NCBI RefSeq assembly: GCF_014041935.1
Contig: NZ_CP059491.1
Location: forward strand, 992,001 to 1,056,000
DNA length: 64,000 nucleotides
Direction of reading: 5' to 3'
DNA from: Gordonia jinghuaiqii
Lineage (GTDB): Bacteria > Actinomycetota > Actinomycetes > Mycobacteriales > Mycobacteriaceae
Part shown: positions 29,484 to 59,465 of the stretch, one piece after another
Position numbering within the stretch: position 1 is the stretch's first letter
How the letters are laid out: every line of letters starts with the position of its first letter
Made by a program: the position numbers and the translations under genes
Notes under the pieces: model-generated
What the model was told of the DNA's origin: nothing
Database searches by the model: none
The model's input: the letters and a program-made list of their open reading frames with translations, nothing else

Positions 29484-29549
29484 TCGCCCACCCCGCTGGT
29501 TGAGCCGGTGACGAGCGCAGCGAGGAGCCGCGTCGAAACCAACAAGATT

Positions 29550-29582
29550 CGCCCCGCCGGTTTCGACCGGCGGGGCGTTTTC
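29550..29582 (+). terminator. Intrinsic terminator after the acyl-CoA dehydrogenase gene
   Basis: CGCCCCGCCGG (29550-29560) pairs with CCGGCGGGGCG (29567-29577) around TTTCGA, followed by TTTTCG. It is a canonical 11-bp G+C stem with a short T-run and marks the last core transcription unit on the left side. The preceding segment 29498-29540 (GTTGAGCCGGTGACGAGCGC...) resembles short dispersed repeats of this genus, but only one copy is present here. Confidence 0.85.
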
Positions 29583-29594
29583 GTTCCCTCTCAA

Positions 29595-29640
29595 CCGTTT
29601 CCTTCACGCTCGGCAGATCTGCTGAGCGGGAAGGAAACGG
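29595..29640 (+). repeat. Left flanking imperfect palindrome of the island
   Basis: CCGTTTCCTT (29595-29604) pairs with AAGGAAACGG (29631-29640), with a further CGCTC...GAGCG pairing inside, around AGATCT. The sequence continues GACACCGCGGGA. The reverse complement of the element at 59466-59537 aligns with it over about 55 nt, including the shared GACACCGCGGGA-type flank, so the two are homologous copies in opposite orientation at the two edges of the accessory island. Confidence 0.75.
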
Positions 29641-29666
29641 ACACCGCGGGAGGGCCCGAAAGAGTT

Positions 29667-30287
29667 TCAGCGCCCGCGGGTCTGGCGTAAGCCGCCGCGT
29701 GCCACCTTGATGAGCCCGATCCGTCCGCCTCCACTGGAAGAAGTCTTCCGCGAAGGGGTGTTGTCGACGACAAACTTCTTTGGCTTCGCCTTCTTCGCTG
29801 GCGTTGACTCTAGCTGGCGCTTCAACGATTTCAGTTTGCGCAATCGGCTTTGTTGGCCCGCGGTTAGGCCGGTCCGAATATTAGCTGTCTGGAGAAGCTT
29901 GATTTCGCGATGCACTTCCTCAAGCAGTCGGGCTCTATATTCCTTGGTTGCTTTCGTCGTCGCAGCGGAATGGGCTTCGGATTCCTTCTTTGAGCCATCT
30001 GATCTCTGGCTCACCTTGGCCTTTGGTTTGGCAGGGCGCGTCTTTACCGCTGATGTGGGCCGGGGCGGTTCTGCGTTCGCGTCGCGGATCCGGATGGTGC
30101 GCTTCGGCTGCTCGCGACCGAAGGCGACGTCGGGGAACTGCTCGCGCAACTGGGCGCGCTCCTTCTCCCACCGGTCGACGTGTGACACTTCTGAAGGAGT
30201 CAGGGTGCGTGTCAGGCCTTCTCGACGCGTCGCGAGAAGCAGTTGGCTGAGCTGCTCGAAGCGGGCAAGAGCGTGGTCGCGGCTCAC
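29667..30287 (-). CDS. Basic, Lys/Arg-rich protein of unknown function
   Basis: A 206-residue basic protein. The first 65 residues are helical (ARFEQLSQLLLATRREGLTRT, then VDRWEKERAQLREQFPDV). The middle is Lys/Pro/Ser-rich and probably disordered; a second helical segment (EYRARLLEEVHREIKLLQTA) and a basic tail ending RGGLRQTRGR follow. GTG at 30287 has GAGGAG 8 nt upstream. No family is recognised. High charge suggests nucleic-acid binding (inference only). It is the first gene inside the island, downstream of the 111-aa gene on the same strand and probably co-transcribed with it. Confidence 0.65.
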   Translation of the reverse strand: MSRDHALARFEQLSQLLLATRREGLTRTLTPSEVSHVDRWEKERAQLREQFPDVAFGREQPKRTIRIRDANAEPPRPTSAVKTRPAKPKAKVSQRSDGSKKESEAHSAATTKATKEYRARLLEEVHREIKLLQTANIRTGLTAGQQSRLRKLKSLKRQLESTPAKKAKPKKFVVDNTPSRKTSSSGGGRIGLIKVARGGLRQTRGR

Positions 30288-30353
30288 GCGGCGTCTCCTC
30301 TATCGACGTACTTCACCAGGGTGTCGGTGAACCATCGGGCTGATGGTGTCTTC

Positions 30354-30689
30354 TCACGGCCTCGGTGTGAACTCGATCGTGCTCACCGCAGGTGCGAACC
30401 CGTAGGTGTTGACGCCAGACCAGTCGGTGTCGACGCGCAAAACGATGCCGCCGTCAACGTTGAGTCGTGCCTCGAGGTCCTCCGGTTCGAGTTCCAGACC
30501 GTCTTCGTCTGTTCCTAGAATTTCCCTCAGCTTTGGGTTGAGGTATCCCCAGTGGGTGGCCTCACCGTAGTAGACGAAAAGGGCAGTAGGGTCCTCATTG
30601 TCGGGGTCGAAGTCGCCCTCTGCGGGACGACCGCTGAATGGCGAGTAGATGACGTCGAGGTAATGCACGTCAATACTTGGCAGAGGCAC
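30354..30689 (-). CDS. Small acidic protein of unknown function (111 aa)
   Basis: A 111-residue acidic protein (IDVHYLDVIYSPFSGRPAEGD, ALFVYYGEATHWGYLNPKL, GIVLRVDTDWSGVNTYGF). Alternating strands suggest a small alpha/beta fold. The GTG at 30689 is preceded by AAGGAA. No family is recognised. It is co-directional with the basic 206-aa gene 66 nt downstream; opposite charge of the two products hints at a pair, but that is inference. It is divergent from the hsdR remnant. Confidence 0.62.
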   Translation of the reverse strand: MPLPSIDVHYLDVIYSPFSGRPAEGDFDPDNEDPTALFVYYGEATHWGYLNPKLREILGTDEDGLELEPEDLEARLNVDGGIVLRVDTDWSGVNTYGFAPAVSTIEFTPRP

Positions 30690-30779
30690 TGGAAATTCCT
30701 TCGGAGCCGCTTCTTCGGGTTGGACGACACCAGTCTTGCAGACAGTCCCGACATCCAGGGGAGCTGTGGTGGGTTAATG

Positions 30780-31479
30780 GGGATAAGCGGTATCGAGCAG
30801 CACCGATTCCGTGATCGTGAACGCGAGGCTGTCGACAAGGGTGACACGGTCGCAGCCGACGAGCTCGACCTGTTCCGCAAGGACGTGGGCACGTTCCTTC
30901 GTCAGTACGACTTTCTGTCTCAGCTGTTCGACTATGAAGACCCCGACCTGGAAAAGCTGTCGATCTACCTGCGCTACCTGGCCCCGGTCATCCGACGTGA
31001 AAACGTGCAGCACGCCATCGACCTCTCCGGCGTGGACTTCGAGTATCTGCGGCAAAACCAACAAGCCACAAGCAGTGCAACCCTTGCCGGGGGGTGCGCA
31101 GCTGCAGCCGGCGGGAGAAGGTGGTGGCAGCGGTATCGTGCGTGACCCTGACCTTGTCGAGCTCGACGAGGTCATCGCCACCATCAACGACCTCTTCGAA
31201 GGCGATCACACGGATGCCGACGTGCGGGGCGTCATTTCGCATCTGCGTAACAAGCTTGAGGAGAGCGAGAACTTGAAGATGCAGGCCCGCAACAACTCCC
31301 AATCCCAGTTCGAGGCGAGCCCCGACATCGACGTCGAGTTCAACGGAGCCGTGATCGAGGCTATGGATGCGCACGCCGACCTCTCCACCCAGATTCTGAA
31401 CAACGCAGTGATCCGAGACAAGTTGGTGTCGGAGCTTGTCCCGGCCATCTACCGACGTCTGCGGGCTGAACCGGCGTAA
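30780..31479 (+). pseudogene. hsdR: C-terminal remnant of a type I restriction HsdR subunit, frameshifted
   Basis: Only the C-terminal helical part of HsdR remains. One frame gives ADELDLFRKDVGTFLRQYDF, LSQLFDYEDPDLEKLSIYLRY and IDLSGVDFEYLRQ; a second frame continues LQPAGEGGGSGIVRDPDLVE, INDLFEGDHTDADVRG and ends VPAIYRRLRAEPA. The frames switch at the A-run near 31053-31057, so one indel separates them. The ATPase and nuclease domains, hsdM and hsdS are absent. It is a dead fragment of a lost type I system, directly upstream of the DUF262 gene. Confidence 0.85.
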
Positions 31480-31528
31480 CCGAACCGGCGCCAATCGAGG
31501 TGTACTGGAGCGAAAGGAACATCTACTT

Positions 31529-33374
31529 ATGGGGTTTCAGACACCGCTGTATGAGCTCAGCGAGTATTTGAAGTGGGCACAGTCCGGAAAGATTCAGTTG
31601 CCCGACTTCCAACGTGGTTACAAGTGGGAAGACGAGCGGATTCGCCAGTTGCTCGTGACCGTCCTCCGCAGGCACCCGCTGGGTGTAGTGATGTTGCTCA
31701 ACACAAGCAACGACCAAATTCGATTCAAACCTCGCCCGATCGAGGGAGCAAGTGTGCCGGCCGGCACGAAGGCTGAGCTGTTGTTGCTCGACGGTCAGCA
31801 GCGGTTGACGTCGCTCACCCAGGCACTTACCGGCGACGGTGTCGTGCACACGATGGACAGTCGAGGCAAACGCATAGACCGCCGCTACTTCATTGACATG
31901 CGTCTGGCGGTGGAAGGTGACGACCGGATCGATGAGGCGGTGTTGTCGCTGCCCGGTGACGGTATAGAGCGAACCAATTTTGGGAAAGACATCGTTCTCG
32001 ATGTTTCGACACCCGAGAAGCAGCGAGCAGCAGGCCTGTTTCCAGTGAACCTGATCTTCGGGGATTCGATGACATGGCTCTTGACCGACATGAATGACCT
32101 CGGCCTCATCAAGGCGTTCAACGACGAAGTTATCAAACCGACTGGTACCTACACCATTCCGGCGATCGAACTCGACAAGGACACCAGCAAGGGTGCCGTT
32201 GCCACAGTGTTTGAGAAAGTCAATGTCGGTGGCCTCCCTCTCAATGTTTTCGAGTTGTTGACTGCGACGTTCGCCGGAGACCCCGCCTACTACGAGTCCC
32301 ATGGCACCGACTTTCGGCTCAACGATGACTGGAAGGAGACACAGGCGAAGTTCGCCGCCTATCCGGTACTCGCGGGCATCGAGAATACCGACTTCTTGCA
32401 GGCTGTAACGCTCCTCACCACTCGTAAGCGCAACCTTGCGCACATCGGCCCTCGCCCGCCTGCCGTATCTGCGAAGCGCGAAGACGTACGTATTGAAGTT
32501 GACGCTCGACGACTACTTGGAGTGGGTCGGTCCGTTACGGGAAGCTTTCGTCTGGGCGTCGGATTTTCTGGCTGACCGCCATGTGTTCGACACCAAGTTT
32601 CTACCGTATCCGAAGCAGCTCGTACCCCTCGCTGCCATCCGAGTGGTTATGGGTCACGACGCCGATCTTCTCGGACCCTGCGGGAAGCTGGTGCGGTGGT
32701 TCTGGTGTGGCATCTTGGGTGAGCTATACGGCGGTGCGATCGAGACACGGTTCGTTCGCGACCTTGAGCAAGTGCCGGAATGGGCGACCGGCGAGGCCGG
32801 ATCAGTCACGCCCAATACTGTCAACGACGCCACGTTCGTCGAGTCGAGGCTCCACTCCCTTAGGACGCGTAACGCGGCCGCCTACAAGGGAATTTATGCT
32901 CTACTGCTCGGCAACGGTGCTCGGGACTGGATGGAGGACAAGGCTCTCGACAAAGTGCAGTACGTGAGCCTTGCGGTCGACATACATCACATCTTCCCGA
33001 AGAAATGGTGCGAGAGCCAGTCGATTGATGACGAACGTCGGGAGAGCATCGTAAACAAGACGGCGATTTCTGCGGTGACCAACCGCACGATCGGCGGCGC
33101 GGCGCCATCCAGCTACCTGTCCAAGATCGAGCAGAAGGCGCAGATCGACGCAAGTAAGGTCGATGGTCTGCTCGAGGCGCACCTCGTTCCCTCTCAGGCA
33201 CTCCGGACCGATGACTTCGATACGTTCTTCGTCGAGCGGCGGAAACGTCTGTGCGACCTGGTTGAGGAAGCGATGGGTAAGGCGGTTCCACGAGACGTAG
33301 GTCATGGCGCTTCAGAAGACTCGACCCAGTTTGAGATTGCCGAGATCGAAGAACTTCCTGACGAGGCCGACTAG
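31529..33374 (+). pseudogene. DUF262/HNH (GmrSD-like) gene split by a frameshift
   Basis: The N-terminal part (nt 31529 to about 32490) has LPDFQRGYKWEDERIRQLLV and the ParB-like nucleotide-cleavage motif LLLDGQQRLTSLTQAL, typical of DUF262. The C-terminal part, in another frame, has the HNH/DUF1524 nuclease core VDIHHIFPKKWCES and SAVTNRTIGG. Frame one reads PPAVSAKREDVR and frame two resumes at LKLTLDDYLEWV; removing the single A at 32492 restores one 614-codon reading frame. Such proteins resemble type IV modification-dependent restriction enzymes. RBS GAAAGG precedes the ATG at 31529. Unless the indel is a sequencing error or is bypassed, the protein is inactive. Confidence 0.82.
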
Positions 33375-33681
33375 ATCAAGTCCAGCCGTAGATGCGTTAG
33401 CCGCGTTGCAGGGTGATCTGCCTCTACCCGCTGCGCTGTCGGAGGCGGCGCAGCGTTAGGGGGTTGAGCCGGTGGTCCGACAGGAAGCCGTGCGTAGGGG
33501 CCAGCTGCGATCCACGCGGGTTCGAGCCGCATTTGCGGTACCCGGTGCTGTTGTCAGACCTCTGGTGCATTCTGTGTGGGAGGCTCGTGACGGGCTCGGT
33601 GGAAGGAAGCGGGGGCGAGGTGTCGGCGACAATGCCGGAGGGTGGGGGAACCGCCTTTGGAGTCGGAAAACGGGTTGGTGA
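33375..33681. other. 307-bp segment without a recognisable gene
   Basis: Open frames exist on both strands but none has start signals or recognisable sequence. A short T-arm-like hairpin (GCGGGTTCGAGCCGC, 33516-33530) is visible, but no full tRNA can be folded around it. The promoter of the GTPase operon should lie here. Confidence 0.4.
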
Positions 33682-36600
33682 ATGACTTCCGAACCGACGT
33701 CCCTGCAAGACGCCGTCAGCGGTGCGATTGAACGAGGTCGCGCGGAACTGTCCCTGTTGGATGACGTCGTAGACCGCCTGGTGGCCGCGTTCGCTAAGAC
33801 CGTGGACGAAAGCGCGGATAACGCGGGCGAGCAGCCTCCGTTGATCCGAGAGCTCGAAGACATCGTTCGGGGGATACCCCGTGAGCTGCGAACACACCTC
33901 GACCGCGAACGGGACGCGCTCGGAACGTTCAACATCGCGTTCTTCGGCCGCACCGGAGTGGGCAAGAGCACTCTCCTGTCGGCATTCGGCGAACTCGACG
34001 GCAGTTATGTATCGCCCGGAGCGAGTGACTGGACGACCGACGTCCGGCATATCGAGTGGCGCGGTTGCCGGCTCTACGACACTCCCGGGATCAACGGTTG
34101 GGGCAGGACCGAAAGCCGTGATGACCTCGAGATGAGGGCACGTAGAGCGGTGGAAATCGCTGACATCGTGCTCCTGTGCTTCGACAACCAGAGCCAGCAA
34201 GCCATGGAGTTCTCGAAGATCGCCGACTGGGTCCGCGACTACGGGAAGCCGGTTGCGGTAGTGCTCAACGTTCGCAATCCGCGATGGCGGGACCCGATCA
34301 AGGTTCCGAGGAGACGGCGGAAGAACCTGTCTGAATCGGTTCGCCAGCATGCTGACAACATTCGGACCGAGCTCGCGAACATCGGGCTGCCGGACACCCC
34401 CGTCGTCGCGGTGCATAGTCGGCGTGCCCTTTTCGCACGGGCGGCCACGCCTTTTCACGGACCGGGCCGAGAGGACTTCCTTCATGAACGAGAGGAATTC
34501 GGGACCGAGACGCTTACGCGCTGGTCGAACTTCGAGACTCTGGAACGGTTGATCACCGCGGCGATCGTAGAGGGCGCCGCGGACCTGCGTCTCAACGCGC
34601 TGCGCGAGGATGTCCGGGCGCGCTGCAAGCGGTCGGCCGAAGAATTGAGCCGGCTGGCAGGTGCGATAGAGAAACAAGCGGGTGCACTCGATCGCGAGAT
34701 CGAATCCCTGTTCGCGATCCTCGGGTATCCGGAGGGTGAGGAACGGGAAAAATGGCTGCAGCCCGCGGAAGTGGATCTCGTCGCAGCTGCGGAAGCGACC
34801 AGGGGCCGCCCGTACACGTCCCCGGCCAAGGGCTCGTTGGATCGCTACGTCCGGTACCTCAGCGCCTCTCATCTGGCGCAGTGTCGCCGGAAGGCGCGAA
34901 CCGCAGCAGATGAGCTGATTGAGAATGCGTTTAACGACCATCGAACCATCGATGAAGCGGAGTTCACGAAGGCCGTGTTCGACGAAACTGCGATCCGAAC
35001 GGCCATCGACACAGTGTGGACCGACCGGCAGACGTTCCTCGAGCGTGAACTCGACATGGCGGCAGGGCAACAGTCTGTGCTGGACCATTCTGCGACCGCG
35101 CGTGCCGCTGCCATCCGAGGTTCGGACGGCAGCGGGGCGGCGGGCAAGTTCGTCCAAGGTGGGGGCATTGCCGTCGGTCTCGGTGCGCTCGCGGTGCCGG
35201 TTGCGATCGCGAACTTCTGGAATCCCGCTGGCTGGGTCGCCGGTGTGGCTGTCGCTGGCGTCGGAGTCGCAGGTCAGCTTCAGCAGCGTTTCGGTAAACG
35301 TCTGAGTGAACGGTCTGAAGAGGCCGCGCGCAAAGCGCGAGTCGAGGCAATCGCGAATAGCCATCGCGCGGTGAACCAGACCTTCGATGACTACGAGAAT
35401 CTCGTTGTCCGTGGGAGTCGTGAAGCGGCGTGGGTACTCGTGTCGGAGTCGGCCATCGAACTGCTCACACAAACAGTCCTTCTCCGAAGGGCACGTGGCC
35501 GGGTCGAAAAGTTGGTTGACGCGCTGAACGTCGGCGCTAACTCGATCGGGGCTTCTCGTGCGCCGCAAAACGTCCTCATTCGCGCGCAGGAGCAACTCGC
35601 CGATACACGCACCGACTTGACTCGAGTTCTGTTGGGAGAGGACTGGCTCGACAGTGCTGATTCCTCAGGGCACGTCCCACAAGTGGACCCCGGCACACGA
35701 GTCATGTATGCGGAGCGGCACGAATCAGACAAACGCAGGTTGTGCGACGCGATCATCGAACTGTGGGCGGCACCGCCGACCGTGAGCATCAGAGCTTGGC
35801 GGGATGAGGTCGAAGCGGAGGCGCTGAGAGACCCTGGCCTTCTTGAAGTGACACAGTCATTTTCGGGTGTGGCACGCGCGAAACCCGTCCTGTCTGTCTT
35901 CGGTGACTACAACTCAGGTAAATCGTCATTGATCCGCCGCATACTTCTCGAGAACGACGTGCGTGCGACCGAATCGATCGACATCCGCGCGGTCCCCGCA
36001 ACCGAAGCATCCGACCGATACGAGCTGCCCCGATTCGACCTCGTCGACACGCCTGGATTGCAGGGCGGAGATCCCGGGCATGCGCAGCACGCGGTCCAGT
36101 CGGCTGTCGAGTCGGCACTCGTCTTCGTTGTCGTCCATATCAACCTCCTCGTCGGCGACACCGCGCTCTTGGAGCAACTTGCGCGTGGTTCGTCAGAACA
36201 CGCTGCCAAAGGAGACCGGATGATCTTTCTCATCAACCGCTGTGACGAGCTGGGTGCGGACCCGCTGACGACGCCCGACACCTTTCTCAATCTGGCGCAG
36301 CGGAAACGCGAGGAGCTGTGCGCGGCTCTCGCGCGGCGCTCCATCGACGTCGGGGTCGACCGGGTACATGTCCTGTCGGGAGATCCTTATGGACTTGCGG
36401 GCGGAGACCACGAACTCGACAAGCATGATTTCGACGGGAACAGAGCTTGGGACGGTGTCGGTGCACTGATCGAGGCAATTGCGGAGCTGCCTGACGACGT
36501 GGTGTCTTCGGCCAGTGTCGCCGCTGCATTCGATAGCGCTGTCACGGCGCTGAAGCGCAGGATGCGAGACCTTCATCTTCAGCAGGACGAAGTCCGTGCC

Positions 36601-37470
36601 GATATTCATCGACTCGAACCACTGATGGGTGCTGTGCGGGCGGCCCATACGGATGCGTCGATCATTTCGGATTCTCTCCGCGAGCGAGCTCACAGGATCA
36701 TCCAGCGTCTTGCATCGGACGCGAAGTCAAGAGTCCACGGGATCGACCGCAAGGATAACGCCAAACTGAGGGACCTCGTCGAAACTTGGTGGCGGGAGCC
36801 ACAAGTCGAAACGGACTTGCAGCGGTTCCTCGATGAGGCGGCGAAGACGATCGACGAATGGCGTAGTGAACACGAGTCGGCCATCGGACGCGAGAGCCGT
36901 TCAGCCCAGTTCGAGGTGATGACCGGTGACGGCGTCGGCTTCCAGACCGCCGACCGCGACTGGCTCGACGACGTGGCCGAGGGTGTGGGCGAGACAGCCG
37001 GAAACCTCGCGCCGCTGGTGAAAGCCTTTGGTAGCCGCGACGCGGTCTACCAGATCGGTAAGCAACTCGGCCACAAGTTCAAACCCTGGGGCGCGGTGAA
37101 AGGCGGAGCGAAGGTGGCGAAGGCTGGTGCGGTCCTGGCAGTCGTCGCCGCCGCGGCCGACGCTGCGGCGATGGCGAATGACGCGCGCAAGGCTAACGAG
37201 CATCAAGACCAGCAGGCTCGTGCCGCCGAGGCGATCGACAGGCGCGCTGAGGAACTACTGGTCGGCATCGTGGACGGTGACGAGGAACCCGGTCCCGTCC
37301 GCTTCCTCGTCGAGCGAATGGCAGAGCTCGAAGCGCTGCTTGACGAGCACTCCCAGCGCACCAGGGTGTTTCAGGACCTTGTGGGTTCTGCGTCCGCCCG
37401 AGCGCGCAGAGTCGAGGCGTTACTGGACTCCGCGGATGAACTGACCGGCACAGAAAGTGGGCGGGCGTGA
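33682..37470 (+). CDS. Giant GTPase with two G domains and two Gly/Ala-rich hydrophobic segments
   Basis: A 1262-residue protein. G domain 1: P-loop GRTGVGKS (residues 89-96), DTPG at 133-136, and NVRN at 196-199 in the place of NKxD. G domain 2: P-loop GDYNSGKSSLI with GKS at 746-748, DTPG at 789-792 and a proper NRCD at 852-855; the GDYNSGKSSLI form resembles dynamin-like proteins. Between and after them lie long helical regions and two Gly/Ala-rich hydrophobic segments (about 492-532 and 1139-1170) that could insert into or deform membranes. The gene overlaps the next GTPase gene by 4 nt. There is no close family that I can name; membrane-acting defence GTPase is the favoured inference. 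Ribosome binding site is weak (GGTTGGTGA). Confidence 0.9.
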   Translation: MTSEPTSLQDAVSGAIERGRAELSLLDDVVDRLVAAFAKTVDESADNAGEQPPLIRELEDIVRGIPRELRTHLDRERDALGTFNIAFFGRTGVGKSTLLSAFGELDGSYVSPGASDWTTDVRHIEWRGCRLYDTPGINGWGRTESRDDLEMRARRAVEIADIVLLCFDNQSQQAMEFSKIADWVRDYGKPVAVVLNVRNPRWRDPIKVPRRRRKNLSESVRQHADNIRTELANIGLPDTPVVAVHSRRALFARAATPFHGPGREDFLHEREEFGTETLTRWSNFETLERLITAAIVEGAADLRLNALREDVRARCKRSAEELSRLAGAIEKQAGALDREIESLFAILGYPEGEEREKWLQPAEVDLVAAAEATRGRPYTSPAKGSLDRYVRYLSASHLAQCRRKARTAADELIENAFNDHRTIDEAEFTKAVFDETAIRTAIDTVWTDRQTFLERELDMAAGQQSVLDHSATARAAAIRGSDGSGAAGKFVQGGGIAVGLGALAVPVAIANFWNPAGWVAGVAVAGVGVAGQLQQRFGKRLSERSEEAARKARVEAIANSHRAVNQTFDDYENLVVRGSREAAWVLVSESAIELLTQTVLLRRARGRVEKLVDALNVGANSIGASRAPQNVLIRAQEQLADTRTDLTRVLLGEDWLDSADSSGHVPQVDPGTRVMYAERHESDKRRLCDAIIELWAAPPTVSIRAWRDEVEAEALRDPGLLEVTQSFSGVARAKPVLSVFGDYNSGKSSLIRRILLENDVRATESIDIRAVPATEASDRYELPRFDLVDTPGLQGGDPGHAQHAVQSAVESALVFVVVHINLLVGDTALLEQLARGSSEHAAKGDRMIFLINRCDELGADPLTTPDTFLNLAQRKREELCAALARRSIDVGVDRVHVLSGDPYGLAGGDHELDKHDFDGNRAWDGVGALIEAIAELPDDVVSSASVAAAFDSAVTALKRRMRDLHLQQDEVRADIHRLEPLMGAVRAAHTDASIISDSLRERAHRIIQRLASDAKSRVHGIDRKDNAKLRDLVETWWREPQVETDLQRFLDEAAKTIDEWRSEHESAIGRESRSAQFEVMTGDGVGFQTADRDWLDDVAEGVGETAGNLAPLVKAFGSRDAVYQIGKQLGHKFKPWGAVKGGAKVAKAGAVLAVVAAAADAAAMANDARKANEHQDQQARAAEAIDRRAEELLVGIVDGDEEPGPVRFLVERMAELEALLDEHSQRTRVFQDLVGSASARARRVEALLDSADELTGTESGRA

Positions 37471-39017
37471 ACCAGATCGACATCACCGCAGTACGAAAGT
37501 GGCTAGAGCACATCCCTGGCGGCTCGCTGGCCGAGCGGTATGAGACAGAGTGGACCGCGTTCGAGCGGCTGGATCGTCCTGTGGTGACTCTTTTCGGCGC
37601 GTATGACACGGGTAAGAGTTCGCTCCTGCGTCGTCTGCTCATCGATGCGGGAGCCCAGGTTCCCGAATGGCTGACGATCAGCGCGCGCCACGAGACCTTC
37701 GAAGTGAACGAGGTGGAACTCGCCGGCTGCATCGCACGAGACACACCGGGCTTCGTGGTCGGCGCATCCGATATTCGCGCCCAGAACAACTCCGAACGTG
37801 CGCTGGCAGCAGTCGGATTGACCGACATCGGGGTTGCGGTTCTGACACCGCAACTCGCCACCGCTGAGCGCGATGTACTTCGGGAGGTCGCTTGCGCTGG
37901 ATGGCCAGAGGGTGCCTTGTGGTTCGTCATCTCGCGTTTCGACGAGGCCGGCGCGAATCCTGAGTACGACGCGGATGGCTACCGTGAACTGGGCGACCGC
38001 AAGGTGCGGGAGCTTCTCGACGTGTTCGATCAGGTGGATCGCGAACGAGTGTATGTCGTGGCTCAAGACCCTTTCCAGACGGCAGGTCCCGACCTCGACG
38101 TGGATCGCGAGGAATGGGATGCCTATCGAGACTGGGACGGCATGCGCGAACTGGCCGACGCTATCGAGCAGATCTCGACGGCGTCGCTATCGGGACTCCG
38201 ACGCGCAGCAGGTCAGCGGTACTGGAAAGCGGTTGTCTCTGAGGTTCTTCGGGAATTGCACGATCGGCTGGCCGAGTTCACGGCCAGTGCCGAAGTCGCG
38301 TCGCACGGCGTGGCACGACGCAACAGTTGGTTGAGTGAGCTCGAAGTCCTGGACCGAGCAGCGCGCGCGGACTTGAACGGTCTGGTCGAAGAGGTCTTCG
38401 ACCAATCGTGGACCGCGCAAGACAATTCAGCCCGAGATCTACAGCGCGAGATCGAGATCGCACTTGATCGTTGGTTCACCAAGCATGAAGCACGCCTCCA
38501 GAGACTGAAAACATCGATCGGCAAGGCGGGCGACCGGGACCGTGCCAGGCCTTCGTGGGATGGCTTCGTCTCGCTTGTCGCTTCGGTTGACTCGGCGCCG
38601 ACAGTCGATCCGAACAGTGGATACTCGCGTCACGTGGAGGACCTGGGGCCGATGTTGATCGCCTTGCTGAAGGCGACGCAGGGTGTCCAAGAGAAAGCCT
38701 CTTCTGCAAAGGGTTCCAACCACACTGTGCGAGGTGTTGCCATCGCGGAAGCGGCCTTTCCCGTCGCACTGTACATCGCGAAGATCGTGGATGACCGGAA
38801 TGCCGCCATGGCGGGTGGTCAGGGTGCGGCTGCCTACAGCCTGACGGAAGCGGTGAGTGAATGTACGCGTCAGGCGAACGATGCGTGGGCCCCGTTCGTC
38901 GAAGACGTACGGGCATTGATCGACGCCGAGTCGGGTGAGCAGGCGGCGCTCGACGAGAGTCTACGAAGGATAGTCCAAGACTTGGAGACGGCGGTACAGG
39001 AGGGAAGTAACCTCTGA
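37467..39017 (+). CDS. Partner dynamin-like GTPase (516 aa)
   Basis: A 516-residue GTPase related to the second G domain of its neighbour: FGAYDTGKSSLLRRLL with GKS at 49-51, DTPG at 92-95, and SRFD at 156-159 where NKxD is expected, so the guanine-specifying Asn is Ser. A helical C-terminal half follows with an Ala/Gly-rich segment (IAEAAFPVALYIAKIV, AMAGGQGAAAYS). GTG at 37467 lies inside the stop of the upstream gene (GTGA), giving strict coupling and suggesting a stoichiometric complex. Three G domains from two genes is reminiscent of hetero-oligomeric dynamin-like pairs. It converges on the metallopeptidase-RelE gene over 68 nt. Confidence 0.9.
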   Translation: MNQIDITAVRKWLEHIPGGSLAERYETEWTAFERLDRPVVTLFGAYDTGKSSLLRRLLIDAGAQVPEWLTISARHETFEVNEVELAGCIARDTPGFVVGASDIRAQNNSERALAAVGLTDIGVAVLTPQLATAERDVLREVACAGWPEGALWFVISRFDEAGANPEYDADGYRELGDRKVRELLDVFDQVDRERVYVVAQDPFQTAGPDLDVDREEWDAYRDWDGMRELADAIEQISTASLSGLRRAAGQRYWKAVVSEVLRELHDRLAEFTASAEVASHGVARRNSWLSELEVLDRAARADLNGLVEEVFDQSWTAQDNSARDLQREIEIALDRWFTKHEARLQRLKTSIGKAGDRDRARPSWDGFVSLVASVDSAPTVDPNSGYSRHVEDLGPMLIALLKATQGVQEKASSAKGSNHTVRGVAIAEAAFPVALYIAKIVDDRNAAMAGGQGAAAYSLTEAVSECTRQANDAWAPFVEDVRALIDAESGEQAALDESLRRIVQDLETAVQEGSNL

Positions 39018-39085
39018 TCGTCCCGCCGGTGGGCGCGGACTCCAGAGCAAACATGGCGCCGCGCGGACTCGTCGAGAAGGTGTCC

Positions 39086-40312
39086 TCAGCCGTGCCCCAT
39101 GGCTTTATGGTTGCCGATGTCCTCTGCGGCCCAGACTGTCTCATCCGGATTATAGCGAAGGTGGGCTCGGAAGTTGCTGTCCACCCGCACCGAGTAGTAG
39201 TTCGGGCCACCCGGTTTCCAGCGTTTGAAATCAAGACTCTTAAGTGCGGTCGACCTCTTCAAGTCGGCCTTCCGTATTTGCCATTGCTTCTGCAAGCGTT
39301 TGTCGAGTTTGCGCAGTGATCGTGTGAAACCTGACGTTTCCGTAATCTCCAGGATCGTGCGAAACGCCGAAATCCCGATCCCGAGCGTCATCAGCAGATC
39401 GTCGCGATCGTGGACGATGATCGGGCAGCGGGTCCAGTCGACGCGCACCAGCCCCGGGTAGAAGATCAGGGGGTCCAGAGCGTCGGGTGCACGCCAAGTC
39501 GGCGCGGAGGACTTGTGGTGATCGCGCGAGAGCTGGCGACAGTGGTCGAGGTAATGGCTGCGGGACCGCGCGTAATCCGGACCGTCGCAGTACCCGGCGG
39601 GTTGCTGCTTGCAGAACTCCTTAAGTGCGCCGTAGGCGCCACCCGAGTTGGACAGGACCTGGCTCGGGTGGCGGAAGCCGCGCAACATGTAGGCGTTGGC
39701 GAGGGCTTCTTCCAATTCGTCGTACCCGTTCGAATTGCGAAGCTCCGCCGCCGCAGGCCAGAACACGCTCACTCCGGTGGCAAGCTCCCAGTTCGCCGCC
39801 ATACAGTCCACCGAGAAGTGAAACAGCTCGTGTCGTGCGATTGCGTGGAAGGCGAGTTCCACCTTTCGTGACGTCGGTAGTGGGAGGGTACTGAAAGCTC
39901 GGATGGCCAGGTAGACAACACCGTCGAACGGAATGTGAACGCCGTGCTGATAGGAGCGCTGGTGGAATGTGACGTACCATCCGAGAGCGTCTAAGCCGTG
40001 GATCTGTTCGAGACGCTGCAATTGCTCCAGGCGCTCTTTTCCGAGCGCGTTCCGGAGGTCGTCGTCGGTGATCTCCGGTGGAACCTCGAAGAACACCATG
40101 GGGTCGTCGGCGAACGTCTGGTCCTCGATCTCAAAGTCCTCGGTGTCGACACCCACGACCGATAGGTCGGTGGAGTTCGGTACCTCGAGCGCCGGATCGC
40201 CGCCGATCTCGACGAACTCGGGGAGAGGCACGTCTTCCCGCATGGCCCCTGGGATGTCCTGCAGTGCAGACCGAATGCTGCTGACACTCGGAACCTCGAG
40301 CGATGAACCCAT
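39086..40312 (-). CDS. HExxH metallopeptidase-like protein with C-terminal RelE-like domain
   Basis: A 408-residue protein. Residues 161-165 are HELFH in AFHAIARHELFHFSVDCMA, and 36-41 residues downstream lies ELEEALANAYMLR. HExxH plus a distal Glu in an EALANAY-type helix is the gluzincin metal and catalytic signature. The last ~65 residues (KRSTALKSLDFKRWKPGG, YYSVRVDSNFRAHLRY and DIGNHKAMGHG) match the strand pattern and IGxH end of RelE/HigB/ParE-type mRNA interferases. ATG at 40312 has GAAGGA 8 nt upstream. No antitoxin is adjacent on its strand. It is convergent with the GTPase pair and divergent from the addB-like gene. A protease-activated or self-regulated toxin is the inference. Confidence 0.85.
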   Translation of the reverse strand: MGSSLEVPSVSSIRSALQDIPGAMREDVPLPEFVEIGGDPALEVPNSTDLSVVGVDTEDFEIEDQTFADDPMVFFEVPPEITDDDLRNALGKERLEQLQRLEQIHGLDALGWYVTFHQRSYQHGVHIPFDGVVYLAIRAFSTLPLPTSRKVELAFHAIARHELFHFSVDCMAANWELATGVSVFWPAAAELRNSNGYDELEEALANAYMLRGFRHPSQVLSNSGGAYGALKEFCKQQPAGYCDGPDYARSRSHYLDHCRQLSRDHHKSSAPTWRAPDALDPLIFYPGLVRVDWTRCPIIVHDRDDLLMTLGIGISAFRTILEITETSGFTRSLRKLDKRLQKQWQIRKADLKRSTALKSLDFKRWKPGGPNYYSVRVDSNFRAHLRYNPDETVWAAEDIGNHKAMGHG

Positions 40313-40537
40313 GCATGTATTCCTTCGGAACCCGGTACGAGAACGACTGCCGTCAAACGAATCTATAACTCTGTTGGCACCGGAATCGCAACGGGGGCGT
40401 CGAGCGGGGAATAGCGTTCCCGCGACGCTAAACGAGTCTGCTGCCCAGACGTGTCGTGCACTTTGTTCGCTCGATGGGGCTGGAGAGGATTTCGCAGGTT
40501 CGGTCACCATGTCACACCCACCAGGCATGATGACCCC

Positions 40538-43348
40538 ATGCCCACCGTGATGGACCAGTTGACGGAGGCGGTGTCCCGCGCCAAGTCCGGCTCACCGCTG
40601 ACCCAGGTCACCGTCATCGTGCCGAGCCACGGCTCCGGCCGGGACGTCCTGCATCACCTGGCGCGGACGCAGGGAGTGGCCAACACCAGCGTCCTCACGC
40701 TTGCGCAGGTGGTGGACAAGCTTGCCGCACCCGCTCTCGCGCCTCGCCAACCGTTGCAGTATCCGCTCCTGGAGGCGGCGGTCCAGCGGGTCCTCGCCGA
40801 CGCGCCGGGCGTCTTCGCCGACGTTGCCGACGAGCCCATCACGTCACAGGCGCTCGCGAGCGCAGCCTGGGAACTCACCGGTATCGCCGAGCCGGCGATG
40901 CAGTCGCCGACGCCCCTCGTCGCCGATCTGCTGCGTATCCATCGCGCCACCACGGAGCGTTTGACCGGCTCGTATTACCCTCAGCAGGAGGCGTATTCGG
41001 TCGCCGCCGAACGACTAGACGAGCTCGGGTCGGTGATCGTCCATCACCCGGCCGCTCACACGCCCGCCGAGCAAGCCCTTCTCCGTGAGCTCCGGCGCTG
41101 CGGCGAGACCATCGACGCGAACACCCACGTCTCACCCACCCAGGTCATCCACACCTCCGACGCCGACGACGAGATCCGCGCTGTCGTCCGGCTGGTCCGC
41201 AAACACCTCGCCAGCGGGGTGCCCGGCCACCGCATCGGCATCTTCTACGGCACCGACGACCCCTACCTGCCGCTGCTCCACGAGCACCTCACCGCCGGCC
41301 ACATCGCGTTCACCGGACCCGAATGCCACACCCTCGTCGACCGTCCCACCGGTCGCGCACTACTCGGTCTGCTGGCACTCGACCACGACGCGATGCCCCG
41401 ACGGGAACTGTTCACCCTCCTCGCCGAAGGCTCACTCCGACGCCCCGAACTCGACGACACGCCGATCACGCAGCCTCAAATCGAACGCCTCACGCGCAGC
41501 GACGAACCCATCGTCGGCGGTGACGACTGGGAGCGCCTCACCCGCGTCGCCGCGCACGAGAAGCACCACGCCAGGGCCGCTGCCGTCCACTCCTACGTCC
41601 GTCGCCTGCAGGCCGACCTGCGCGCTCTCGTCGACGCGCCGGACTGGGCCACCGTCGCCGGACATCTGAACACCTTGCTCGCCACCTACTTTCGCACGCC
41701 GAAACGCGAGACCGCGGTCGCAGACCTCGCCGCGATCCGCGCCGACTGCGCGGGAATCGCCCTGATGGACGGCATCGCACCGCAACCCACCGCGGCTCGG
41801 GTGCTCGACGCGGTCTCGATCCGGCTGAACGCGCACCGAGGCATGCACGGGACGTCGGGTGCAGGCGTCACGGTCGCACCGATTTCATCGGGAGTCGGCC
41901 GCGACCTCGACGTCTGCGTCGTCGTCGGTGCTGCCGAAGGCATCGTGCCCACACCCCGCCGCGACGACCCGCTTCTCCCGCCGGAACTGATCGGCATCAC
42001 CGCCCGCGATCACATGGAACGCCAACGCCTCGCCTTCGCCGGTGCTGTGAGCGCCGGCCGCGCCGAACGGGTCGTCACGTTCCCGCGCGGTAACCTGCGC
42101 GGCGGCGCCGAGAAGGTACCGTCCCGCTGGCTACTCCCGGCGCTGGCCGATCTCGCCGGGCGCGACGTCGACGTCGTCAACTGGCAACGCGCGACGGAGA
42201 ATTCGCCGCAGATCGTTGCAGTCGACTCCTTCGACGTCGCGGCCCAACGCGCCGACGAGCGCATCGGCGCCTCCGCGGCCTCCGACACCGAATGGCGCCT
42301 CCGCGAACTCGCCGCCGTCCCAGCAGACAGTCGTCGCGGCGCGCTCGACGATCCGATCATCAACCGTGGCATGCACATGCGCAGCGACCGCCTCAACGGC
42401 CGCTTCACCCGGTTCAACGGCAACCTGTCGTCGGTCAGCGGACTCATCACCACCTTCGATCAGCCGGTGTCGCCGACCGGCCTCGAACTGTGGGTGCAGA
42501 GCCCCTACCAGTACTTCCTCGAACACATCCTGCGCCTGCGTGCCCTCGACGACCCCGACGAGATCGCCCAGATCGACGCATTGACGCGGGGGACCCTGAT
42601 CCACACCATTCTCGAGCGGTACGTCCGCGCGACCATGGACGGCGCAGAGCTCGATCTCGCCCGCCTGCGGATTGTTGCTGAAAAAGTTCTCGACGAGGCG
42701 CAGGCCAACAGTCCGGGCTGGCTCGAACAGCTGTGGGCCAAGGACCGCGGCACCATCATGCGCGACCTGGACGAATGGTTCACCCACGACCACACCGACG
42801 CCGCCGACGGTTGGCGGCCGACTCACGCGGAGGCGGACTTCGGCCTCGACGCGCCCGGCACTCACGAGGTCTCGCTGGCACTGGGCGAGAACAAGATTCG
42901 CTTCTGCGGGCAGATCGACCGCATCGATCGCCACCATGGCGGCCGCATCCGCGTCACCGACTACAAGACCGGCAAGGCCGACAAGTACAAGGACCTCGCC
43001 GAGAGCACACCCACCAACTCGGGTCTGCAATTCCAGCTTCCCGTCTACGGACTGTTCGCCCGCACCTTCGGCGCCGACGTCGAAGCTCGGTACTGGTTCA
43101 TCACCAGCAAAGGCAAGTTCGCCTCGGTCGGCTACCCCGTCACCGCCGATGTCGTCGCCACCCTCATCGACGACATGACGCTCGTGCACAAGTCGATCCG
43201 GGCCGGCTACTTCCCGCCCAAGATCGAAGACACCCACTGGGACCTGCCCGTCATCGACCTCCTCGGACGTGCCGGGCTGCGACGCGCCTGGGCCGCACTG
43301 GAACACGTCGACGAACTGTCCGACTACGTGCAGAAGTACGGAGGCTGA
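40538..43348 (+). CDS. AddB/RecC-like PD-(D/E)XK nuclease subunit
   Basis: A 936-residue protein related to AddB-type subunits. The N terminus (VTVIVPSHGSGRDVLHHLAR) keeps the position of an AddB Walker A but without GKT, so the helicase half is probably inactive. The C-terminal PD-(D/E)XK nuclease shows CGQIDRIDRHHGGRIRVTDYKTGK with D808-Y-K810, and FQLPVYGLFAR for the last motif. The cysteine ahead of the nuclease domain that helps hold the AddB iron-sulfur cluster is Ser here (QSPYQYFLEHIL). ATG at 40538 is used; its upstream 40 nt are duplicated at 58930. The stop is 1 nt before the addA-like ATG. It is not part of the housekeeping AdnAB type. Confidence 0.88.
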   Translation: MPTVMDQLTEAVSRAKSGSPLTQVTVIVPSHGSGRDVLHHLARTQGVANTSVLTLAQVVDKLAAPALAPRQPLQYPLLEAAVQRVLADAPGVFADVADEPITSQALASAAWELTGIAEPAMQSPTPLVADLLRIHRATTERLTGSYYPQQEAYSVAAERLDELGSVIVHHPAAHTPAEQALLRELRRCGETIDANTHVSPTQVIHTSDADDEIRAVVRLVRKHLASGVPGHRIGIFYGTDDPYLPLLHEHLTAGHIAFTGPECHTLVDRPTGRALLGLLALDHDAMPRRELFTLLAEGSLRRPELDDTPITQPQIERLTRSDEPIVGGDDWERLTRVAAHEKHHARAAAVHSYVRRLQADLRALVDAPDWATVAGHLNTLLATYFRTPKRETAVADLAAIRADCAGIALMDGIAPQPTAARVLDAVSIRLNAHRGMHGTSGAGVTVAPISSGVGRDLDVCVVVGAAEGIVPTPRRDDPLLPPELIGITARDHMERQRLAFAGAVSAGRAERVVTFPRGNLRGGAEKVPSRWLLPALADLAGRDVDVVNWQRATENSPQIVAVDSFDVAAQRADERIGASAASDTEWRLRELAAVPADSRRGALDDPIINRGMHMRSDRLNGRFTRFNGNLSSVSGLITTFDQPVSPTGLELWVQSPYQYFLEHILRLRALDDPDEIAQIDALTRGTLIHTILERYVRATMDGAELDLARLRIVAEKVLDEAQANSPGWLEQLWAKDRGTIMRDLDEWFTHDHTDAADGWRPTHAEADFGLDAPGTHEVSLALGENKIRFCGQIDRIDRHHGGRIRVTDYKTGKADKYKDLAESTPTNSGLQFQLPVYGLFARTFGADVEARYWFITSKGKFASVGYPVTADVVATLIDDMTLVHKSIRAGYFPPKIEDTHWDLPVIDLLGRAGLRRAWAALEHVDELSDYVQKYGG

Positions 43349-43349
43349 G

Positions 43350-46300
43350 ATGACCGCAGCACAACTCGCCGACCAGGCTGCGCGCGATCGCATCACCACC
43401 GACACCGGCGCCACCCTGTTCGTCGAAGCCGGCGCCGGCAGCGGCAAGACCCATTCGCTGGTCGGCCGCATCTGTCACCTCGTGCTGCACGACCGCATCG
43501 AACTCGACGCCGTCGCCGCCATCACCTTCACCGAGAAAGCCGCAGCCGAACTCCGCGAACGCGTGCGTGTCGAACTCGCCAGACACGACACCGACCGTGC
43601 GCGAGCCGCTCTCGAACAGATCGACACCGCAGCCATCGGGACGCTGCACGCGTTCGCGGCCTGCATCATCGGCGAGCATCCCCTCGAAGCCGGTGTGCCA
43701 CCACACATCGCGGTCGTCGACGCCATGGGCTCCCAGCTGTCCTTCGAACGCCGCTGGCGTCGCATGCGCACCCGACTGTTCACCGACGACGCCCCACCCA
43801 TGCTGGTCGACGCCATGGGCATCGTGATGGCCGCCGGAGCATCGCTCGACCAGATGCGCACACTCGCCGACGCGCTGGACCGCAACTGGGATCGCCTGAC
43901 TCTCGACGACGACCCGCAGGGCATCGCACCCGCCGACATCGACCGCATCTTGTGGGAGACCGACGCCATCATCGACAAGCTCGACGATTGTCTCGATCCG
44001 GAGGACAAGCTCGCGGTCAAACTCGAGGAACTCCGTGAATGGCGGATCCTGGTTGCCGCGGAACGCGATTCCTTCGGGTGGGTTCCGATGGTGGACCTGT
44101 GCCCGAAGCTCGGCAACGTGGGTCGGGGGTCCGCGTGGCGCGGTGGTGTGGCGCAATGCAAAGAGATCAAGGCCGCCGCCAAGGCGCTGCGCGAGGAGAT
44201 CTGCTCCGACGTGGTCGGCACCTACGTCGACGGCGCGGTGCGCGTCGTGGTCCGCCACCTGTCGGAGATCGTCCTCGAGGAGGCGCGCGAGCGGCAGCGC
44301 AGCGGCCAGCTCGAATTCCACGACCTGCTCGTCCTGGCCCGCGACGTACTCGGAAAGCCGGAGGTCGCCGCGACCGCCCATCAGCGCTACCAGCGCGTCC
44401 TCCTCGACGAGTTCCAGGACACCGATCCGCTGCAACTCACACTGGCACAACGCATCGTCGCCGGTCGAGACGAAGCCGGCCGGCTCTTCACCGTCGGCGA
44501 CCCAAAACAGTCCATTTACCGCTTCCGGCGCGCCGACATCGCGGCGTACATGTCCGCGCGGGATGGCACCCCGCCCGCTGATGTCGTACAGCTGACCACC
44601 AACTTCCGGTCCACGCGGCCCGTTCTCGACTGGGTCAACGCTGTTTTCGGCCGGCTCATCGTCGCTGAGCATCACGTGCAGCCCGACTACACGCCGCTCG
44701 ACCCGGCCCCGGGCCGACCCCGCTGGGACCTCTCCTGGGGGCCCAAGCCGTTCGTCTTCCCCGACACCGAGGAACCCGTCGATGACGAGGACGCACTCTC
44801 TCCCGCCGAAGCCCTCCGCGCACGCGAGTCGCGCGACGTCGCGAAGATCATCGCCACCGCCATCGAGAACGGCTGGTGCAAGGAGACATTCGACGGGGAT
44901 GCGTACCAGCATGTCCCGTTGCGCTGGAAGGACATCTGCATCCTCATCCCGTCGCGCGCGGTACTGCCGTTCCTGGAGAAGAGCCTCGACGCCGCGGGCA
45001 TCGAGTTCCGTTCGGAGGCATCGAGTCTGGTGTACTCGACGCAAGAGGTGCACGACCTCCTCGTCACCTGTCGCGCGTTGGCGAACACGGCAGACGAGGC
45101 CGCACTCGTCGCCGCCCTGCGTACCCCACTGTTCGGCTGCGGTGACGACGACCTGCTCCGCTGGAAAGCCGCCGACGGCCGATGGAGCATCTACGCCGAC
45201 GCGCCCACCACAGAGTTGGCCGGGTCGCCGGTGGCGGCCGCATGTGCATACCTGAGGGCGCTGTCTTTGGAACTGGGGGGCCTGAACCCGGGCGCACTGC
45301 TGAGCCGCCAGGCGACGGATCGTCGGGTGTTCGAGGTGTCCATGGACTCGCCCCGTCACCGCGACGTCTGGCGGCGTCTCCGCTTCGTCATCGACCAGGC
45401 CCGCGCCTGGTACGCCGAAGACCGCGGCTCGCTGCGCGACTACATCGACTGGGCCGCCACCCAGGCCGACGAGAACGCGCGCGTCGCCGAGACCGTCCTC
45501 CCCGAGATCGGTGTCGACGCCGTGCGCATCATGACCATCCATGCCGCCAAGGGCTTACAGTTCCCGATGGTCGTCGTCGCCGGCATGAGCGGCGGATTCC
45601 GCAGCCAGCCCGAACCGCTGCTGTGGGATTATGACGAGCAGCTGCAGGCATGCGCGTCGAAGAACGTGACGTCGAAAGGCTATGAGGCAGCGGCAAAGAC
45701 CGAGAAGGCGCACGCCGAGGCGGAGAAGAAGCGCCTGTTGTACGTCGCGTGCACGCGCGCCGAGAGTCACCTCGCGGTCTCCGGATACGTCGGGAAGAAC
45801 GCATCCTGGGGAGCCGCGCTCGCACCCGCACTGGAGGGTTTGCCCAACGACGTCCCCGAGCTCGTCGAACCGGTCAGGCGCGACGACGAAGCGATCGCCC
45901 AGCACGAACGACAGGACTGGGTCGACTGGGCGGCAGAGACCGCTGCGATCGAGACGGCTTCGTCGCTCCGGGCCTCCTACTCGGCGACGCGGATCGTCCA
46001 CGGCGTCGATGACGCCGAAGCCTCTGTTCTGCAGGGGTACCGAGATTCCGGACGGCTGACGGCGCCGGTAGCCGAACAGGTCCCGGTCGGCACCGCGAGC
46101 CCTGACAGCGGCGCGACGCTGGGTACCGCCCTGCACGCGCTGCTCGAACAGGTCGGGTTGGGTACTGCTGTCGATGACGAATTCGACGAGACTGCCCGGC
46201 GCGCGGCCGCACTCGCGGGCGTCGTCGACGCGGATCAGTTCGTGGCGCTGGCTCGGTCGGCGTTGCAGTCGGCACCGGTTCAGCGGGCTGCCGTCCGCGA

Positions 46301-46592
46301 GTACTGGCAGGAGATGCAGCTCGCCGGTCCCGGGCCCGACGGTGTCACCGTGGTCGAGGGCATCGCGGACCTGGTGTACCGCGACGACGACGGTTCGTTG
46401 GTCATCGTCGACTACAAGACCGACGTCGGAGTGTCCGCTGACACCCTCGAGGCGTACTGGGCGCAACTCGCGATCTACGCCGATCTGCTGCGAAATGCAA
46501 CCGGGGAGAGAGTGTCTCGGCTGGAGTTGGTGTTCTGCCGGCCAGGGCAGGCGACCGTCGTCGAACGTGATGTGCGGAGTACGAAGAGGTAG
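43350..46592 (+). CDS. AddA/RecB-like UvrD helicase-nuclease
   Basis: A 1080-residue superfamily 1A helicase with C-terminal nuclease. Walker A is EAGAGSGKTHSLV (K33), TEKAAAELRERV is motif Ia, LLDEFQDTDPLQL (D353-E354) is Walker B, TVGDPKQSIYRFRRAD is motif III, RIMTIHAAKGLQFPMVVVA is motif V and LLYVACTRAESHL is motif VI. The nuclease is GIADLVYRDDDGSLVIVDYKTD (D1021, K1023). RBS GGAGGC precedes ATG at 43350, immediately after the addB-like gene. Together they should form an ATP-driven DNA-end-processing machine, plausibly directed at invading DNA. The last ~55 nt are copied at 48562. Confidence 0.93.
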   Translation: MTAAQLADQAARDRITTDTGATLFVEAGAGSGKTHSLVGRICHLVLHDRIELDAVAAITFTEKAAAELRERVRVELARHDTDRARAALEQIDTAAIGTLHAFAACIIGEHPLEAGVPPHIAVVDAMGSQLSFERRWRRMRTRLFTDDAPPMLVDAMGIVMAAGASLDQMRTLADALDRNWDRLTLDDDPQGIAPADIDRILWETDAIIDKLDDCLDPEDKLAVKLEELREWRILVAAERDSFGWVPMVDLCPKLGNVGRGSAWRGGVAQCKEIKAAAKALREEICSDVVGTYVDGAVRVVVRHLSEIVLEEARERQRSGQLEFHDLLVLARDVLGKPEVAATAHQRYQRVLLDEFQDTDPLQLTLAQRIVAGRDEAGRLFTVGDPKQSIYRFRRADIAAYMSARDGTPPADVVQLTTNFRSTRPVLDWVNAVFGRLIVAEHHVQPDYTPLDPAPGRPRWDLSWGPKPFVFPDTEEPVDDEDALSPAEALRARESRDVAKIIATAIENGWCKETFDGDAYQHVPLRWKDICILIPSRAVLPFLEKSLDAAGIEFRSEASSLVYSTQEVHDLLVTCRALANTADEAALVAALRTPLFGCGDDDLLRWKAADGRWSIYADAPTTELAGSPVAAACAYLRALSLELGGLNPGALLSRQATDRRVFEVSMDSPRHRDVWRRLRFVIDQARAWYAEDRGSLRDYIDWAATQADENARVAETVLPEIGVDAVRIMTIHAAKGLQFPMVVVAGMSGGFRSQPEPLLWDYDEQLQACASKNVTSKGYEAAAKTEKAHAEAEKKRLLYVACTRAESHLAVSGYVGKNASWGAALAPALEGLPNDVPELVEPVRRDDEAIAQHERQDWVDWAAETAAIETASSLRASYSATRIVHGVDDAEASVLQGYRDSGRLTAPVAEQVPVGTASPDSGATLGTALHALLEQVGLGTAVDDEFDETARRAAALAGVVDADQFVALARSALQSAPVQRAAVREYWQEMQLAGPGPDGVTVVEGIADLVYRDDDGSLVIVDYKTDVGVSADTLEAYWAQLAIYADLLRNATGERVSRLELVFCRPGQATVVERDVRSTKR

Positions 46593-46630
46593 AGGACGAG
46601 GACGAGGCAAGTCCGAAGCAAGGAGACCTA

Positions 46631-48205: not shown

Positions 48206-48214
48206 GCGGATTCA

Positions 48215-48555
48215 TTACTTCGGCGGATCGACGTCGGCCTTCAGCCGCCCGCGCACTTGTTCTGTGTCAGAACGGTGGCGGGTTGTTTCGGTCCCACGCG
48301 TCTTGCTGTCGACGATGGGTGTCGGTGCGGTGGTCGCGTCGTCGGTAAGTCTCTGCCGCGCCGGGTGATCGGGTGGCTGGGTCTTCAACGACGCGAACAG
48401 GTCTCGCCGGAGTATGGGTTGCCCAGGTACGTATGGCCGGTGGGAGCTTCGAACCACACGGCGAGGTACTCGTCCTGGGAGTCGCGCCACCTGCCGAAGG
48501 TTTCGATGCGGTGGTGAAACCGGCACAGTGGTTTGAGGTTGCGCTGGAGGGTTTT
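48215..48555 (-). pseudogene. 3' remnant of a 13E12/DUF222 HNH endonuclease gene
   Basis: On the minus strand, RNLKPLCRFHHRIETFGRWR then EAPTGHTYLGNPYSGET is the C-terminal HNH zinc-type module of 13E12-repeat (DUF222) proteins; after a one-base frameshift near 48400 the typical tail LFASLKTQPPDHPARQR ... RGRLKADVDPPK continues to a stop at 48215. The N-terminal DUF222 part is missing and the 5' side is fused abruptly at about 48555-48562 to a copy of the addA-like 3' end. Such genes are multicopy in Mycobacteriales and often undergo recombination. Confidence 0.8.
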
Positions 48556-48561
48556 TCCGCG

Positions 48562-59453: not shown

Positions 59454-59465
59454 GAATGCCGAAAA

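Follow-up and report, generated by a model that had tools for sequence, protein, structure and literature searches.

Two overlapping genes in the genome of Gordonia jinghuaiqii encode three P-loop GTPase domains between them, which raises the question to which family such an operon belongs and whether it serves in defense against phages. The genes, here called P1 and P2, lie in a window of 64,000 nucleotides (positions 992001-1056000 of NZ_CP059491.1, one contig of 5.18 Mb), this window being the whole stretch of DNA that was analyzed. A sequence-only reading of the window had described a coupled pair of dynamin-like genes in which P2 starts inside the stop codon of P1, with the G4 motifs NVRN, NRCD and SRFD and two hydrophobic Gly/Ala-rich segments in P1. 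We found both open reading frames (ORFs) and all G motifs as described, a GTGA sequence that holds both the start of P2 (GTG) and the stop of P1 (TGA), and the two hydrophobic segments at about residues 490-512 and 1145-1163. The stretch with the highest hydrophobicity in P1 lies at about 805-831, within the second G domain. The second P-loop (GDYNSGKS) begins at residue 741, one residue later than the reading had placed it. The architecture, described there as unusual for a bacterial operon, is a variant of the Eleos (LeoABC) system.

Family assignment and the three units

Eleos is defined by LeoA and LeoBC only. The P1-P2 operon almost certainly belongs to this family, and it does so as a variant: LeoBC and LeoA are fused in P1 and a third unit follows as P2, which differs from the canonical layout of two units in two genes seen in three loci (L021-L023). 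The PADLOC model for LeoBC (PDLC03841) matches residues 2-640 of P1 with an E-value of 5.2e-160 (532 bits); canonical LeoBC reaches 336 bits in L021 and 369 bits in L023. The LeoA model (PDLC03839) matches residues 725-1228 of P1 (E 8.3e-84, 281 bits) as well as P2 (E 9.5e-96, 320 bits). A sequence search with alignment A1 connected the LeoA unit of P1 to the LeoA structure 4AUR (E 1.8e-19); sequence searches of the PDB with P2 gave no 4AUR match. In Foldseek, 4AUR was the first match of both structural models (E 9.3e-10 for P2), followed by bacterial dynamins, BDLP, Cj-DLP, mitofusins, Mx and IRG proteins, among other GTPases. Pfam assigned Dynamin_N to P1, together with DLP_helical barely above the cut-off. 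The dynamin-like nature proposed earlier for both proteins is thus borne out. The VIA-align lists contained mostly G domains of other GTPases, and absence from them excluded no family.

The model of P1, which begins at residue 63, contains two units of a G domain and long helices with unordered tips, and a stretch of low confidence lies at each of two paddle motifs. The motif WNP-x-GW at the hydrophobic tip of LeoBC occurs in 17 out of 20 P1 loci and in all three canonical LeoBC proteins (Clostridium, Capnocytophaga, Arsukibacterium). The motif FK[PA]W is found in the LeoA unit in 18 out of 20 P1 loci and in two out of three canonical LeoA proteins. Neither motif was found in any of 21 P2 proteins. 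P2 is modeled as a G domain and a stalk with a tip region of low confidence. The stalk tips may bind the membrane.

In a tree of G domains, canonical LeoBC and the LeoBC domains of P1 form one group (support 100/98), and another group (100/99) unites the LeoA domains of P1 with the P2 domains. Given this latter grouping, P2 would most simply be a second, diverged LeoA that arose by duplication. We should note that the joint branch of P1 LeoA and P2 is long and that the tree program issued a warning about long branches that meet. Taken by themselves, the P1 LeoA domains form no supported clade (39/35), the distant L100 is unsteady, and the placement of canonical LeoA was not resolved.

The closest counterpart is canonical Eleos, including LeoA, LeoB and LeoC of enterotoxigenic Escherichia coli (ETEC) (PMC4159319), with which the operon shares the family matches, the paddle motif of LeoBC, that of LeoA in part, and adjoining genes with LeoBC first. 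It differs in having LeoBC and LeoA in one chain, followed by a LeoA-type unit without paddle motifs. Bacillus subtilis DynA (PMC8844932) is also composed of two fused dynamin units and is a phage-protective membrane dynamin, but its description as consulted includes no separate third unit, and the likeness is one of description. The Campylobacter Cj-DLP1/DLP2 heterotetramer (PMC6104087) is likewise an operon-encoded heterotypic dynamin pair and was matched in Foldseek (5oxf, 5owv); its two G domains reside on separate chains, and its relation to P1-P2 was seen at the level of fold. Mycobacterial IniA, Nostoc BDLP and mitofusin/Fzo1 are fold matches too, but the PDB sequence searches do not list them among their matches. 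Eleos has been annotated in actinobacteria, with an enrichment in Rhodococcus (PMC10482375), and a two-gene Eleos is listed for R. erythropolis (PMC12915292); this is probably the same form as P1-P2. The literature searched yielded no description of a LeoBC-LeoA fusion with a third unit, although the original Eleos paper may contain one.

Pairing and distribution of P1 and P2

The two genes are constantly paired. P2 directly follows P1 in 23 out of 23 loci in which the contig continues (the window, L006-L017, L019, L020, L047, L053, L095-L098, L100 and L101), and 14 out of 22 loci share the overlap of exactly 4 bp. The contig of L018 breaks off within P1. The P1 homologue of Gordonia amicalis (L020:2002-5800) is split into two overlapping frames, due to either a natural break or a sequencing error. 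L100 encodes a distant P2 partner (145 bits) and L101 has a gap of 91 bp between both genes. The distances among P1 and among P2 proteins are correlated (r 0.973 over 22 loci, L020 being left out), a value matched by none of 2000 permutations but inflated by shared ancestry.

Within the order, P1 was found in at least nine of 348 genomes and P2 in the same nine, adjoining P1 each time, so that homologues occurring singly, which would have spoken against a joint system, were not encountered there. Within the genus the distribution is sporadic, with P1 in seven of 59 genomes. These tallies are lower bounds, since the order samples were scored for two or four candidates per genome and the phylum sample for three. 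The searches for homologous proteins scored 8000 candidates each, and the best 120 of 161 and the best 120 of 283 matches are listed; the search for P1 homologues was limited to proteins of at least 0.55 of the P1 length. The phylum sample also contains L030 (E 1.2e-47), a frame of 292 aa located where its contig ends, and an ORF of L057, the frame of which is possibly wrong, gave no match.

Single proteins of 576-591 aa in L054:9279-11054, L055:7971-9737 and L056:9383-11113 match both LeoBC and LeoA weakly (PADLOC, 66-93 bits). They branch apart from the P1 and P2 domains in the tree and were therefore not counted as unpaired members. Fifteen of the 18 genomes of the phylum sample that match this type are from one family.

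Spread by phages was considered and set aside: a tblastn search of P1 against 50,697 phage records gave no relative, nor did a scan of viral_contigs for P2 with patterns from two conserved stretches only. Among 72,556 plasmid records, one contains a relative: the mobilizable Nostoc plasmid pn6 (L101) encodes a distant P1-P2 pair with 29% identity. On this plasmid the gene before the pair encodes an AAA protein with a match to MkoC, and the gene after it is of the protelomerase family.

Nucleotide use and mode of action

Like the recurring gene overlap, the motifs go beyond chance. When 50 P1 relatives and 56 P2 relatives were aligned, G1 and G3 proved to be retained in all three domains, and the G4 motifs, which the sequence-only reading had rightly seen to differ, are each conserved in their own form. 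The G4 motif of bacterial dynamin-like proteins is N/T-K-x-D; the LeoBC site is without the guanine-selecting Asp in all 50 aligned relatives. This Asp seems to be absent from canonical LeoBC as well, where NVKQ, NIKE and NMKK were read by eye at the G4 position of L021-L023. In contrast to the LeoA-type sites of the operon, which keep the Asp (NRCD, SRFD), canonical LeoA of the same loci has NKTS, NKMS and NKFE at this position (read by eye; the script pattern reported none). Among 22 P2 proteins of the loci, 16 have SRFD, four SRAD and one SRFN (L100), and one gave no pattern match (L053). The script pattern for G4 also missed the motif in some P1 proteins, and its blanks do not represent losses.

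Because these differences in G4 are conserved, unequal nucleotide binding at the three sites is plausible on the motifs. In Ras, an exchange of Asp to Asn in the G4 motif makes the protein select xanthine instead of guanine, and ATP is hydrolyzed by SpoIVA, which descends from GTPases and has an altered G4 (PMC7952092). A more specific proposal, which we regard as quite unlikely, is that of a three-site dynamin with mixed nucleotides, in which LeoBC would bind a non-guanine base (xanthine or adenine) or be a structural pseudo-site, while LeoA and P2 would use GTP. Its assembly would then respond to two nucleotide pools or to a pool altered by the phage.

The computations establish the family and fold, the fusion, the constant pairing and co-divergence of the two proteins and the setting in a defense island; assembly and mode of action are what we infer. 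An anti-phage function is likely, and it is moderately probable that P1 and P2 form an Eleos-type, membrane-bound, hetero-oligomeric dynamin of three units that answers membrane damage caused by phages. By analogy with LeoA/LeoBC, for which it is proposed (PMC4159319), and Cj-DLP1/2, for which heterotypic G-domain assembly has been shown (PMC6104087), the three units would assemble via G-domain contacts, with the membrane disturbance as the trigger. The two paddles of P1 in the LeoBC and LeoA stalks would contact or insert into the inner membrane, and the paddle-less P2 may act as an activating or capping (regulatory) partner. The resulting lattice might tether or seal the membrane and thereby slow lysis or genome entry, as for DynA, which delays lysis; mutating both of its P-loop lysines causes the same sensitivity as deleting it (PMC8844932). 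We consider the case for membrane protection as the mode of action evenly balanced. No published mechanism for Eleos was found in the literature searched. ETEC LeoA alone is inactive and has been proposed to need LeoBC, but the quantities of LeoB and LeoC obtained did not suffice for biochemical work (PMC4159319). With LeoBC fused to LeoA and a constant third partner, purification might yield the complex as an assembly of two defined chains. In addition, the three sites carry different conserved G4 motifs, and site-by-site mutants would therefore allow a direct test of heterotypic G-domain dimers in bacterial dynamins.

The same family assignment would also hold if the complex killed or permeabilized the infected cell. 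This form of abortive infection is unlikely, given that DynA, the phage-protective dynamin with a studied mode, stabilizes membranes and delays lysis (PMC8844932), but the glycine-rich paddles could disrupt a membrane and the island setting is like that of many abortive systems. The island evidence does not separate the two modes.

The setting itself points to defense. The operon lies in an island of 30.8 kb between the genes for an acyl-CoA dehydrogenase (28320-29483) and for an aldehyde dehydrogenase (60286-61791). In a manual count, 29 of the 59 genus genomes have both flank genes on one contig (aldehyde dehydrogenase matches of at least 77% identity), and three more have them on different contigs. 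The gap between the flank genes is at most 3 kb in 20 of these 29 genomes, 4.8-9.3 kb in seven and more than 30 kb in two, namely the window and G015, in which 43.3 kb occupy the same hotspot. Judging by the contigs, only G000 and G015 have P1 at this site. The GC content of the island is 0.631, against 0.688 and 0.703 in the flanks. Together with the matches of nearby genes to defense families, the gap sizes agree with the defense-type island that had been suggested from the sequence.

A housekeeping role or a role in vesicle release, with membrane remodeling of the type of Streptomyces DynAB or the ETEC leo genes, is improbable. It would be in line with the reduction of ETEC vesicle release by about 50% upon deletion of leoA/leoB (PMC4159319). 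We set it aside because of the sporadic distribution of P1 in the genus and the order and the position at a variable hotspot beside defense genes; the presence of a distant pair on a mobilizable plasmid also speaks against it.

Very improbable is the possibility that the operon is a module of a larger composite system, together with the AddAB-like pair downstream or BREX or GmrSD-type genes upstream. AddB-like and AddA-like genes lie downstream of P2 in the window (40451-46592), and such a pair is found downstream of the Leo pair in four out of 23 loci (the window, L047/L048, L012 and L016), and in L047, the locus of G015, P2 and the AddB ORF are only 84 bp apart. BREX genes are located directly upstream of the Leo pair in L016:1819-9980 and L053:3478-9761. 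AddB occurs in 11 of the 59 genus genomes, and three genomes have both P1 and AddB where about 1.3 would be expected. Against such a system, no Leo gene was found in the vicinity of AddAB in any of the 16 other AddAB loci that were retrieved (9-20 kb each); two of these genomes, G015 and G033, have Eleos at a different place. Within the sample of the order, 13 of 348 genomes have AddAB and only the window's own genome has both AddAB and P1. On these two grounds a four-gene Leo and AddAB system was set aside as the main interpretation. In addition, the Eleos-adjacent AddA copies fall in two separate places of their tree. The GC content at third codon positions (GC3) is 0.69-0.71 in the Leo genes versus 0.84-0.85 in the AddAB-like genes (0.89-0.93 in two genes of the left flank), and the Leo and AddAB-like genes are therefore probably of separate origin. 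The AddAB-like genes, which are also paired in each of the 16 other loci, look like an independent helicase-nuclease module.

That P1-P2 is a remnant in decay, as are the genes upstream of it (a split GmrSD-type gene and a truncated type I restriction gene), is hardly credible: P1 is broken in L020, but P1 and P2 are full-length open in the window with all G motifs present, and the copy in L047, from the same genus, is 93% identical and full-length open as well.

Features of the window and neighboring genes

The coordinates of the operon, its motifs and further features of the island are listed in Table 1.

Table 1. Location of the operon, its sequence motifs and other island features in the window, with the basis of each assignment (residue numbers in brackets).
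Feature	Position	Strand	Basis
P1, LeoBC-LeoA fusion GTPase	33682..37470	+	ATG start, 1262 aa; ORF and PADLOC matches
LeoBC unit of P1 (2-661), G domain and helical stalk with paddle	33685..35664	+	own profile match; model m2742214d1afe
G1 of domain 1, GRTGVGKS (89-96)	33946..33969	+	sequence, relatives' alignment
G3 of domain 1, DTPG (133-136)	34078..34089	+	sequence, relatives' alignment
G4 of domain 1, NVRN (196-199), Asn at Asp position of N-K-x-D	34267..34278	+	N-x-R/K-N in 50/50 rows
LeoBC paddle-tip motif WNPAGW (513-518)	35218..35235	+	[WST]NP-x-GW in 49/50 aligned rows
LeoA unit of P1 (668-1260)	35683..37461	+	own profile match; PDB 4AUR match
G1 of domain 2, GDYNSGKS (741-748)	35902..35925	+	sequence, relatives' alignment
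G3 of domain 2, DTPG (789-792)	36046..36057	+	sequence, relatives' alignment
G4 of domain 2, NRCD (852-855)	36235..36246	+	[NG]R-x-D in 50/50 rows
LeoA paddle motif FKPW (1133-1136)	37078..37089	+	FKPWG in 47/50 aligned rows
Stop/start overlap GTGA, 4 bp	37467..37470	+	shared by P2 GTG start and P1 TGA stop
P2, second LeoA-type dynamin-like protein without paddle motifs	37467..39017	+	GTG start, 516 aa
G1 of domain 3, GAYDTGKS (44-51)	37596..37619	+	sequence, relatives' alignment
G3 of domain 3, DTPG (92-95)	37740..37751	+	sequence, relatives' alignment
G4 of domain 3, SRFD (156-159)	37932..37943	+	SRFD in 53/56 rows (closer P2 relatives)
Defense island holding the operon	29484..60285	.	gap sizes in related genomes; GC contrast with flanks
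PD-T4-3 model match; GIY-YIG (LEM-3 type) and ADP-ribosylglycohydrolase domains in one protein	50337-52535		
HmaA model match	52649-55396		defense scan of island genes
DpdE/DrmD model match	56131-58851		defense scan of island genes

No sigma-70 promoter was found in a scan of 33300-39200, terminators there were at chance level, and no tRNA was found within the window. Between P2 and the AddB-like gene, a 480-aa protein is encoded at 39086-40528 on the minus strand, with a HExxH motif read by eye; it gave no match in Pfam, NCBIfam or PADLOC. Upstream of P1, the GmrSD-type restriction gene at 31436-33374 is split over two frames, while its counterpart in G015 (L047:10344-12185) is one open frame of 613 aa. 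The truncated remnant of a type I restriction subunit at 30552-31479 shares 95% identity with a portion of L047:7895-10096, a sequence that has matches to REase_I models.

The neighbors of the Leo pair were scanned in ten loci (the window, L008, L010, L014-L017, L047, L053 and L101), which were picked for their large neighboring ORFs and compared with no background control. Strong matches to defense families were found in nine of these ten loci and weak ones only in L010. In L017:1989-9619, PglX/PglW genes (BREX) lie beside the Leo pair in divergent orientation.

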